Of a stretch of 64,000 nucleotides of DNA, positions 8,464 through 62,116 are shown piece after piece (position 1 is the first letter of the stretch; every line of letters starts with the position of its first letter). Below the pieces are notes generated by a model. That model was not told where the DNA came from. It did not search any database and saw nothing but the letters and a program-made list of their open reading frames with translations. This stretch comes from Candidatus Puniceispirillum sp. Lineage in GTDB: Bacteria; Pseudomonadota; Alphaproteobacteria; Puniceispirillales; Puniceispirillaceae. A program made the position numbers and the translations under genes. Location of the stretch: positions 1 through 64,000 of the forward strand of contig JADHOR010000002.1 in NCBI GenBank assembly GCA_016778895.1, written 5' to 3'.

Positions 8464-8505
8464 CCCCGTCAGATCGTCCCCGTCAGATCGCCCTGTTAGA
8501 TTGCC
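8464..8505. repeat. Three tandem copies of a 14-bp unit
   Basis: Directly after the slt stop codon: CCCCGTCAGATCGT, CCCCGTCAGATCGC, then the diverged CCTGTTAGATTGCC. The first two differ at one base. It fills most of the short gap before moaB. No function is evident; a slippage-prone spacer is the simplest reading. Confidence 0.7.
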
Positions 8506-8529
8506 CCTGAGGATAGAAAGGTAAGAGCA

Positions 8530-54880: not shown

Positions 54881-56395
54881 ATGTTTGATGAGCTAAAAAA
54901 TAAATTAGCTGATGTCTTTGACGGGCTGGCGCGCCGTGGTGCGCTTAGCGAGTCAGACGTTGACGCTGCGCTTCGTGAGGTGCGGCTGGCGTTGCTTGAT
55001 GCTGATGTTGCGTTGCCCGCGGTAAAAGCCTTTACCGAAAAAGTGCGTGAAAAGGCTGTTGGTGTTGCCAGCATGCGGTCGGTGCGTCCTGATCAGCAAG
55101 TGATCAAAATCGTCAATGATGCGCTGATCGAAATGCTTGGTGGTGATTCGGCGCCTTTGAATATCGCCACCAACCCGCCTTCCGTTATTCTTATGGCAGG
55201 TTTGCAAGGTTCCGGCAAAACCACCACAGCAGGTAAATTAGCTTTACGATTTCGTAGCCGTGAGCGGAAAAAAGTCATGCTTGCCTCGCTTGACGTGACG
55301 CGTCCGGCTGCGCGTGAACAATTGCGTATGCTTGGTAATCAGGCCGAGGTTGGGGTGCTGAACGAGGTCGATGGTGAAAGCCCGACACAGATTGCCAAAC
55401 GCGCATTGCAAGCAGCCAAACTACAAGCCTATGACGTGCTGATCCTTGATACAGCTGGCCGGCTTAGTATTGATGAAGCGCTTATGGCCGAGCTGCGCGC
55501 CATCAAAGAGGCAACCAACCCGCATGAAATTCTGTTGGTTGCCGATTCGATGACTGGTCAGGATGCGGTGAATACGGCCGAGGCATTCCACAAGGCTGTT
55601 GGTGTAACCGGCATTGCGCTGACCCGTCTGGATGGCGATGCGCGTGGCGGTGCGGCCTTGTCGATGCGTCATGTTACCGGCTGTCCGATCAAACTTGCGG
55701 GTGTTGGTGAAAAACAGGACGCTCTTGAAGAGTTTGATCCGGCGCGGCTTGCTGGACGCATTCTGGATATGGGCGATGTTGTCGCGCTGGTCGAAAAGGC
55801 GGCGGAGAGCATCAAGCTTGAAGAGGCTGAGCGTCTGGCAAAACGCATGGCCAAAGGTCAATTCGACATGAATGACTTTCTGGCACAAATTCGTCAATTG
55901 CAGAAAATGGGCGGACTTGGCGGGCTGATGGCAATGTTGCCTGGCATTGGTAAAATGCAGAAACAGATTGCCGCCGCCGGTATTGACGACCGGATGATCA
56001 AACGGCAGGAAGCGATCATTCTTTCGATGACAAAAAAAGAGCGCGTTTCGGTTGGCTTGTTGAACGCATCACGGCGCAAACGGATTGCAGCTGGATCTGG
56101 TACCACGGTTCAAGATGTAAACCGGCTGGTTAAACAATATCAGGATATGGCCCGCATGATGAAAAAGTTGGGCGGTAAAACTGGCGCGGCGGCAATGAAG
56201 GCAATGCTTGGTGGCGGAATGGGCGGCGCTAGTGGCGGCGCTGGCGGCATGCCGGATTTAAGCGCGCTATCCCGTGGGTTTGGCTCTGGCGGGTTTGGAA
56301 AGGGATTGGGCGGCGGTCTTGCCAAAGGATTGGGAAGCAGCCTCGCCAATGGATTGCCGGGATTGGGTGGCAAACCCTCCGGTAAGAAGAAATAG
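54881..56395 (+). CDS. ffh: Signal recognition particle protein Ffh
   Basis: GTPase that with 4.5S RNA targets nascent membrane proteins to FtsY. 504 aa. N domain [20 protein letters not shown] domain with [61 protein letters not shown] and [12 protein letters not shown], then the Met-rich M domain ([20 protein letters not shown]) and a Gly-rich tail. The 4.5S RNA gene is not visible here. TTGACA at 54690-54695 is a possible -35 box but lacks a fitting -10. Confidence 0.96.
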
Positions 56396-56433: not shown

Positions 56434-57024
56434 ATGGCTTTGAAAATCAGACTGGCACGCGGCGGTGCAAAAAAACGCCCATTTTACCGGATTGTTGTTG
56501 CCGAGGCGTCATCGCCCCGCGATGGCCGGTATGTTGAGCGTGTTGGTACCTATAATCCAATGGTGCCAAAAGAGCATGAGCAGCGCATGACCTTGAACAG
56601 CGAGCGGATCACATTCTGGCTCGGTCAAGGTGCCAAGCCAACCGACCGCGTTCACAAGATGCTGGCCGCTGCTGGGCTAACCGAAGCGCCGGTCATTCGG
56701 GACCAGCCGAAGAAATCAGCACCGGGTAAAAAGCGCGCTGATCGCGAAGCACAGGCTGCTGAAGCTGCCGCTGCTGCCGCTGCTGCCGCTGCTGCCGAGG
56801 AGGCCGCCGCTGCCGCTGCTGCCGAGGAGGCCGCCGCTGCCGCTGCAGCTGAAGCTGAAGTCGCTGTAGAAGAAGCACCTGCCGAGGCCGCTGTAGAAGA
56901 AGCACCTGCCGAGGCCGCTGTAGAAGAAGCGCCTGCCGAGCCCGCTGTAGAAGACGCGCCTGCTGAAGAAGCTGTAGAAGACGCGCCTGCTGAAGAAGCC
57001 GCTGAGGAAAAGGCGGGTAGCTAG
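56434..57024 (+). CDS. rpsP: 30S ribosomal protein S16 with long Ala/Glu-rich C-terminal repeat tail
   Basis: 196 aa, about twice the usual ~80-90. The first ~85 residues are a normal S16 ([56 protein letters not shown]). A basic linker with [15 protein letters not shown] follows, then two AEEAAAAAA-type and five AVEEAPAEA-type 9-residue repeats ending in EEKAGS. The tail is low-complexity and strongly acidic. GGGATAAATTC precedes the ATG. Its TAG shares a base with the rimM GTG. The core call is firm; the tail may be disordered and solvent-exposed. Confidence 0.95.
56794..56997 (+). repeat. 27-bp minisatellite inside rpsP
   Basis: Two 27-bp units (56794-56820, 56821-56847, differing at the last base), a 15-bp junction, then five 27-bp units from 56863 to 56997 beginning GCTGTAGAAGA. 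Units at 56863 and 56890 are identical, as are those at 56944 and 56971; the middle one is intermediate. Each unit is nine codons, so gain or loss keeps the frame. Confidence 0.9.
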
Positions 57025-57602
57025 TGGCGACTGGCGACCGGCCTGCTGGCAATATCAAGGCGGGTCAATATTCGGTTAAACAAAGCCTCACCGGCCATTT
57101 GTCGGTTGGTGCGATTGTTGGCCCGCAAGGCATTAAGGGGCAGTTCAAGGTAAAGCCTTTTACCGCGACCCCCGATGCGCTGGCGGCATATGGGCCGGTC
57201 ACTTTGGATGATGGCCGGCAAATGTGGTTGCAGGTAACATCAGTTAACGCCAACGGTCTGGCGATTGTGCGGGCCAGCGGCGTTGATACACGGGATGGGG
57301 CCGAGGCTTTGCGCGGTACAACGCTTTATGTGACGCGTGAGCAGCTGCCGGATCTGGATAATGGTGAAATCTACCATGCTGATCTTTTAGGCATGATGGT
57401 TTCAGCCGCGGATGGTAAGCCGCTTGGCAAGATCGTTGCGATCCATGATTTTGGCGCCGGCGAGATTGCAGAGCTGGCACCGGATAAAGGGCCAACCATC
57501 ATGGTGCCATTTGGCGGTGAAAACCTAATTACGGTCGATATCAAAGCGGGTAAAATTGGTCTTTTAGTGCCGGATGGCTTGTTGGATGATCAGCCGGAAT
57601 AA
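57024..57602 (+). CDS. rimM: 16S rRNA processing protein RimM
   Basis: Ribosome maturation factor binding S19 in the 30S head. 192 aa from a GTG at 57024 that overlaps the rpsP TAG. SVGAIVGPQGIKGQFKVKPF opens the RimM N-domain, LRGTTLYVTREQLPDL follows, and GEIYHADLLGMMVSAADGKP starts the PRC-barrel ending in IMVPFGGENLITVDI. Standard operon position between rpsP and trmD. Confidence 0.94.
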   Translation: MATGDRPAGNIKAGQYSVKQSLTGHLSVGAIVGPQGIKGQFKVKPFTATPDALAAYGPVTLDDGRQMWLQVTSVNANGLAIVRASGVDTRDGAEALRGTTLYVTREQLPDLDNGEIYHADLLGMMVSAADGKPLGKIVAIHDFGAGEIAELAPDKGPTIMVPFGGENLITVDIKAGKIGLLVPDGLLDDQPE

Positions 57603-60962: not shown

Positions 60963-61003
60963 ACGCTGACCCCGATCAAAGCTCTGAAGTGAAGGAAAAG
61001 ATT

Positions 61004-62116
61004 ATGGCGTCTAATCGCAAAGTAATGGTGTTGCCCGGTGACGGTATTGGCAATGAGGTCATGCAAGCCAATCTGAAGCTGATTGACTGGCTGGCAAAAC
61101 ACCGCAGTCTGGGGTTTGATCTGTCGGAAGGACTTGTCGGCGGCGCTGCTTATGATGTGTATGGAACGCCATTGACTGATGAGACTCTTGCCGACTCAAT
61201 AGCCAGTGATGCGGTGCTTTTTGGCGCTGTTGGCACGCCAAAATATGACGGCGTTCCTTTTGATGTGCGACCCGAGGCTGGGCTATTGCGACTGCGTAAG
61301 GAAATGGATCTGTTTGCTAATTTACGTCCGGCAATGGTGTTTCCAACATTGGTTGATGCGTCGACTTTAAAGCCTGAAGTTGTTTCCGGCCTTGATATCA
61401 TGATCCTTCGCGAATTGTGCGGCGGGTCATATTTTGCCGAACCACGTGGTATCGATGATCTGGGTGACGGCATCAAAAGAGGTTATGACACTAACGCTTA
61501 TACAACCCCTGAAATTGAGCGGATTGGCCGTGTTGGTATGGATCTGGCGCGCAAACGCGACGGCCGTCTTACCTCGGTTGAAAAGGCCAATGTAATGCAT
61601 TCTGGTGTGTTGTGGCGGCAGGTGATGACTGCGCTTCATGCGGCAGAGGGCGACGGCGTTGAACTTAGCCATATGTATGCAGATAACTGCGCCATGCAGC
61701 TGGTCCGCAACCCTAAGCAGTTTGACGTGATTGTTACGGATAACCTGTTTGGTGATCTTTTATCAGATTGCGCGGCAATGTTGACGGGCTCGTTGGGGAT
61801 GTTGCCATCAGCATCGCTGGGCACGCCCGATCCCGAGACAGGTCTGCCAAAGGCGATGTATGAGCCGGTGCATGGTTCCGCCCCTGATATTGCGGGCAAG
61901 GGCCTTGCTAATCCTTTAGCGCAGTTTCTCAGCTTTGCGATGATGCTGCGCTACAGCTTTGATCAGGCCGAAGAGGCTGATCTGGTCGAAAAGGCTGTCA
62001 ATATTGCCCTAGAAACGAAACGCACCGGTGACATTATGGCGCCGGGATACGAGCAGACCGGTACCGAAGGCATGACCAAAGCCGTGCTTGACGCGATGGA
62101 TTTTCTGGCACGTTGA
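61004..62116 (+). CDS. leuB: 3-isopropylmalate dehydrogenase
   Basis: Oxidative decarboxylation of 3-isopropylmalate. 370 aa from the ATG at 61004 with AAGGA seven bases upstream; a GTG five codons earlier is possible. [56 protein letters not shown] (the LeuB-specific loop), [16 protein letters not shown] and [20 protein letters not shown] are present. Third of the leuCDB run. Confidence 0.97.

Follow-up and report, generated by a model that had tools for sequence, protein, structure and literature searches.

The closest described counterparts of the protein considered here are the bS16 proteins of Mycobacterium smegmatis and Cutibacterium acnes, which carry a long extension past the normal core. 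According to the published reports, this extension contacts uS4 on the body of the 30S subunit, part of it is unresolved, and helix 17 (h17) is short in both species (PMC10085706, PMC6133939, PMC5876184). A bS16 that likewise continues far beyond its core is encoded in the 64,000-nucleotide stretch of DNA from Candidatus Puniceispirillum sp. that was analysed here (assembly GCA_016778895.1, positions 1 to 64,000 of contig JADHOR010000002.1; henceforth, the window). The window is a part of a 173-kb contig of a genome that is 99.6% complete. Gene content and 16S letters suggest the Alphaproteobacteria as the class and would place the lineage in the marine SAR116 group. In what follows, genomes and loci are referred to, where necessary, by our own G and L numbers, G000 being the genome of the window.

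The rpsP Gene and Its Product

The rpsP gene occupies positions 56434..57024 of the forward strand, stop codon included, and encodes a bS16 of 196 amino acids. It begins with ATG, its frame is intact, and it lies between ffh and rimM, both assigned by Pfam/NCBIfam. The open reading frames that follow encode, to judge from our reading of their translations, what we take to be TrmD and RplS, which would give the gene order ffh-rpsP-rimM-trmD-rplS of the trmD operon. The GTG start codon of rimM (57024..57602, forward strand) overlaps the stop codon of rpsP by its G, and the resulting TAGTG is present in all nine complete, unshifted loci of the genus (12 loci with S16). The protein scores above the curated cut-offs of both S16 families, with 104.2 bits against 45.3 for TIGR00002 and 93.3 bits against 27 for PF00886, and the Pfam Ribosomal_S16 match (residues 9-70, E 8.4e-27) bears out the normal S16 core assumed in the original prediction, which was made from the DNA letters. 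The S16 profile has only one match in the genome, and rpsP is thus a single-copy gene.

Four parts, all on the forward strand, can be distinguished in the protein. The conserved core, residues 1-82 (56434..56679), is supported by the Pfam match and the alignment and is modelled by AlphaFold2 with pLDDT of 80-95 in the 10-residue blocks 1-80. It is followed by a basic proximal segment, residues 83-108 (56680..56757), supported by the alignment and by column conservation over 123 sequences; its pattern is K94 P97 K100 E/D103 R104, that is, K-x-x-P-x-x-K-x-x-E/D-R, with D at position 103 in the protein of the window. A long Ala-rich helix is predicted for residues 97-146 (56722..56871), with pLDDT of 92-96 in blocks 101-140, and a disordered acidic end rich in Pro, Glu and Ala is predicted for residues 147-196 (56872..57021), with pLDDT of 50-59 in blocks from 151 on. 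The model thus consists of the core, a linker, a helix mostly of high confidence and a low-confidence end; the alignment that fed it spans the core only, so the helix of the tail is to be taken as a prediction. Ala-rich helices are easily over-predicted. The net charge is +9 for the core, +3 for residues 83-108 and -25 for residues 109-196.

Tandem Repeats in the Coding Sequence

The DNA encoding the distal part of the protein contains two tandem arrays with a 27-bp unit, both on the forward strand. Array 1 (56785..56846), found by Tandem Repeats Finder, consists of 2.3 copies of an Ala-rich unit with 100% match. Array 2 (56862..56990), found by the same program and by lag-27 analysis, consists of 4.8 copies, with 92% match, of a unit of the AVEEAPAEA type and scores highest of the eight rows that Tandem Repeats Finder returned for the window. 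Seven in-frame 27-bp repeats had been predicted; the repeats are indeed in frame, and what had been read as a single series of seven is made of two different units in about 2.3 and 4.8 copies. The other rows include two overlapping 24-bp arrays (56288-56356) in the part of ffh that encodes its Gly-rich C-terminus, just upstream of rpsP, and short arrays at 8464-8507 (13 bp x 3.3) and at 61960-61997 (18 bp x 2.1), the latter within the open reading frame 60989-62116.

Exact repeats at a lag of 27 extend over 42 bp (56862/56889), 38 bp (56782/56809) and 29 bp (56944/56971), and the first and the last of these confirm the predicted pairs of identical adjacent units at 56863/56890 and 56944/56971. 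A repetitive protein may by itself impose similarity on its DNA, and the synonymous codons of the tail were therefore shuffled 500 times with the protein held constant. The observed lag-27 identity, 195 of 255 positions against 172.7 +/- 4.0 in the shuffled sequences, was reached in none of the 500 shuffles, and an exact repeat as long as 42 bp in one of the 500. The DNA copies are thus closer to each other than the protein repeat demands, and the repeats look like recent duplications at the DNA level, as had been supposed. With tandem copies in excess of the demand of the protein and a unit length that is a multiple of three, the feature is a real, recently duplicated coding minisatellite, and the bS16 extension in which it lies is of a widespread kind.

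Distribution and Conservation of S16 Tails

In the genus, 12 of the 16 genomes gave an S16 match, in the family 46 of 61, in the sample of the order 48 of 55 and in that of the class 235 of 241. For the genomes with at least 90% completeness and no more than 5% contamination, the corresponding numbers are 8/8, 26/28, 40/43 and 229/234. We read 135 loci of the class, of which 46 belong to the family, 18 to the rest of the order and 71 to the rest of the class, these last being the 30 best-scoring ones and 41 picked by hand from the rows listed. A partial second match (L047) and a locus in the same place as L032 (L058) are not among the 135. Of these loci 126 are complete. The analysis covered 123, since nine loci running off their contigs, L034 and L036 with runs of N, and the shifted L010 had been dropped. 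An extra set was taken from 79 low-scoring genomes of the class, 50 of which were read (30 top-scoring and 20 picked), yielding 49 complete sequences.

All 54 complete S16 sequences of the family and the order have a tail. The core is followed by 58-149 residues in the family (n=37), 49-140 in the rest of the order (n=17) and 28-235 in the rest of the class (n=69), and by 16-155 residues in the 49 sequences of the low-scoring genomes. At least 27 residues follow the core in 169 of 172 complete sequences of the class, and only 16-20 in three genomes (G262, G195 and G278). The description of an acidic tail as unusual therefore does not hold for this class. The longest tail, 235 residues, belongs to L075, and that of L062 is acidic and then turns into a Lys-rich repeat. 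A literature search, most subscription papers being outside its reach, found no paper on an alphaproteobacterial S16 tail.

Outside the class, S16 is 79-89 amino acids long in 39 of the 41 sequences read, the other two being those of G370 (148 aa) and G372 (156 aa). These two proteins (L206 and L208) have Ala/Lys/Glu tails, and their genomes a long V3; in their family, the five other S16 sequences read are 79-82 aa long. A scan with a Lactococcus query had 546 confirmed places, and in 76 of the 80 best of these S16 is 90-91 aa long; by title the 80 are all Bacilli, with no alphaproteobacteria among them. Within the Bacilli, S16 of the Leuconostoc type (Convivina, Leuconostoc, Fructobacillus) ends, beyond a Lys/Ala linker, in a HeH/LEM domain; PF12949 scores at or above its cut-off in the three proteins scanned (L191, L194, L179), and L196 was recognized by its sequence.

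The charge of the tails of the class is distributed in a regular way. Over its first 25 residues, the tail has a positive net charge in 36/37 sequences of the family, 14/17 of the rest of the order and 69/69 of the rest of the class, and the charge of the distal tail is negative in 37/37, 17/17 and 64/69, respectively. Over the 123 rows, the basic segment is conserved at K94 (87%), P97 (87%), K100 (94%), E103 (86%) and R104 (91%). Several of the shortest tails of the class consist of little beyond this segment, and the net charge of the whole tail is zero or positive in 24 of the 69 class sequences outside the order. The original prediction, that the acidic tail could bind basic factors or simply be tolerated, may hold in either form; the basic stretch beside the core, not set apart in that prediction, is the better candidate for a binding part. 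In L013, which comes from a fragmented assembly (G051), the tail adjoins the core directly and lacks the basic segment seen in its relative L014, through either a deletion or mis-assembly.

Turnover of Tail Length

The length of the tail turns over rapidly, and length variation, which had been predicted as likely between strains, is found between close relatives. In the sister genomes with L003 and L007 the S16 core is the same at the DNA level, and the tails comprise 89 and 104 codons including the stop, the difference being one 45-bp in-frame block; the tails of L043 and L044 differ by 45 bp, and those of L022 and L024 by 51 and 75 bp. The comparison covered 40 of 55 pairs, namely those listed: 13 pairs whose core identity is 0.95 or higher, the duplicate L032/L058, which is left out of the count, and 26 less similar pairs. 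In 11 of the 13 pairs the length of every tail gap is a multiple of three, and the frame is thus kept open while the length changes. The two exceptions are L009/L010, which involves the shifted assembly of L010, and L049/L054, where gaps of 4 and 41 add up to 45. Of the 26 less similar pairs (core identity 0.878-0.947) only 12 show such gaps throughout; L010 takes part in five of the remaining 14, and the placement of gaps inside repeats is uncertain at this distance. The best DNA repeat lag is a multiple of three in 49 of 49 sequences (a count that includes L010 and the duplicate L058), most often 15 (16 sequences) or 45 (11), then 30 (5) and 27 (4). This pattern of turnover is what would be expected of slippage if selection maintained the frame and the composition.

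Interpretation

We consider it likely that the bS16 of the window is an ordinary small-subunit protein whose C-terminal extension, of the kind usual in its class, is composed of a docked basic part and a flexible acidic tail lengthened by slippage. The basic part, about residues 83-108, would lie on the body of the 30S subunit in the manner of the actinobacterial bS16 extension that reaches uS4. The distal part would be helical at first and then continue as a disordered Ala/Glu/Pro tail out in the solvent. Selection would hold the composition and the frame of this tail and hardly act on its length or order, so that replication slippage of in-frame units, here of 27 bp, could quickly lengthen or shorten it. 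The parts of this reading are not equally firm. That the distal tail is flexible is quite probable, and we also think it rather probable that the length of the tail is nearly neutral. The docking of the basic segment on the 30S body, for which the actinobacterial ribosomes provide the analogy, is favored only slightly over its absence. No bacterial ribosome of this class was recognized among the 60 PDB sequences listed of 68 matched, for which organisms were not listed, and docking is hence something that we infer. The whole tail is presumably translated.

The alternative readings differ in which part of the tail they address. It is possible, albeit doubtful, that the extension makes up for a short helix 17 (the V3 region) of 16S rRNA by serving as a protein brace to uS4, as is proposed for Cutibacterium in two reports (PMC10085706, PMC5876184). 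The V3 span is indeed 81 nt in all 13 class genomes that were matched and 105-106 nt in 39 of the 40 matched from outside the class, with a pattern that allows spans of 79-109 nt only and matched 53 of 159 genomes; a separate class pattern, restricted to short spans, matched 57 of 241 class genomes, and the V3 of the window's own genome was found with neither of the two patterns. Among the 38 long-span genomes in which S16 was matched, 36 have a protein of 79-89 aa. This association is strong but amounts mostly to a contrast of one clade with the rest, and it has exceptions: G370 and G372 combine a long span with S16 of 148 and 156 aa, and G344, a genome placed outside the class, pairs a short span with an 81-aa S16. 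The 16S gene of G344 (L215) lies at a contig end, is 85% identical to three of four class sequences against 78-81% to four sequences of gammaproteobacterial type, and may be a contaminant. Because of G370, G372 and the one-clade design, we reject compensation for a short h17 as the full explanation and retain it as a partial rival, which would at most account for the basic segment. The acidic part is addressed by another reading, in which the distal S16 tail and an acidic end of uS2 would cover the solvent side of the 30S subunit with a polyanionic brush and so repel RNA and basic proteins or recruit basic factors. Of 27 genomes of the family and the order, 25 yielded the ribosomal protein uS2, and in all 25 it extends 37-119 residues beyond its conserved core (loci L313 and L312-L336); its end is net negative in 24 of them and neutral in L317, is often built of repeats, and in the genome of the window comprises 46 residues with a net charge of -10. 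A degenerate codon pattern for APAEEA occurs in G000 only in rpsP (both of two sites) and in G030 only in rpsP (three) and rpsB (two), five sites in all, and the negative distal charge is retained in every one of the 54 complete S16 sequences of the family and the order. We nevertheless regard the brush as unlikely, since the sequence of the S16 tail is not conserved and has no known partner, its length differs by tens of residues between sisters, and many members of the class have short or neutral S16 tails. The uS2 ends, moreover, were measured from a chosen start point and within the order only, and those of L312, L317 and L333 are of a different make-up. A more elaborate version, with the fast-changing in-frame acidic repeats of bS16 and uS2 as a selected, slippage-tuned polyanionic brush of the 30S subunit to which the S16 tail is anchored by its basic segment, is a speculation to which we give still less credence.

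Two further readings deny the tail a place on the mature ribosome or question its repeat number. The tail could be made and then clipped and so be absent from mature ribosomes, in line with the fact that neither the PDB matches listed nor the literature search gave a record of a tail of this class on a ribosome; we hold this to be very improbable, given that long bS16 proteins of other phyla have been deposited for ribosomes and are partly resolved there. That the repeat number is an artefact of assembly is the least credible reading of all. It draws on nine of the 135 loci of the class whose contigs stop within the S16 tail (L004, L008, L016, L019, L039, L040, L051, L073 and L263), so that the repeat seems to break assemblies, and on the assembly of L010 (G014), which has frameshifts both in the rpsP tail and in ffh. 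The double frameshift of L010 suggests indel errors, and we rejected it as a case of natural shortening because the frame of ffh is disturbed there as well. Against an artefact in the window stand the intact frame within a 173-kb contig of a nearly complete genome, where the copy number comes from the assembly alone, and two family genomes, each assembled in a single contig (L007 and L026), with tails of the same kind. The assemblies that break or shift inside rpsP are a warning in their own right.

As to the reading that we prefer, a basic segment that is docked and an acidic tail that is free, separating a conserved and probably ribosome-bound segment from a freely evolving tail makes function testable by truncation. 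The turnover of the tail also shows that, within a ribosomal protein of the conserved set, the length of a region can differ by tens of residues from one sister species to the next.

Comparison with Known Ribosomes

Long bS16 proteins are also found in the PDB (188, 192, 162, 156 and 147 aa), and this too speaks against a tail on S16 being unusual. The 147-aa protein is among the long chains that enter the comparison with M. smegmatis and C. acnes, and the 156-aa chain 32nj is presumably that of M. smegmatis. Taking the Foldseek target length as the number of modelled residues, we find 85 of 188 residues present in 7jil, 118 and 97 of 192 in 9i5v and 9i5x, 85 and 113 of 162 in 5v93 and 7msc, and 128 of 147 in 8cwo. 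The S16 of Flavobacterium johnsoniae (7jil) and Porphyromonas gingivalis (9i5v) are close in length to that of the window and have a largely unmodelled tail; they belong to another phylum, and although a phmmer match reaches into the tail, a match of such composition is no evidence of homology. The NCBIfam models of long S16, PRK14521 (186 aa) and PRK14520 (156 aa), match residues 1-192 and 1-153 of the protein, with scores far below their cut-offs (97.5 against 209 and 89.2 against 165), and the S16 of the window is a member of neither family.

The mammalian mitochondrial bS16m resembles the class proteins in another way. Positions 3-117 of the class profile match residues 17-131 of the chain (3jd5), with equal lengths through the basic segment in an alignment that is not displayed, and a fold search aligned 109-112 columns against about 80 in most of the bacteria listed. 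The mammalian chains, of 135-137 aa, do not have an expansion as large as that of the window's S16. Homology of the basic segment to bS16m was considered and is kept as no more than a lead, since only the core match is extended and a profile made from the tail of the class alone, the sensitivity of which is uncalibrated, matched no PDB chain at E 10, the actinobacterial extension included. The resemblance to the actinobacterial proteins accordingly lies in a long extension past a normal core, for which contact with uS4 has been reported in actinobacteria and, in the bS16 of the window, is what we infer from position.
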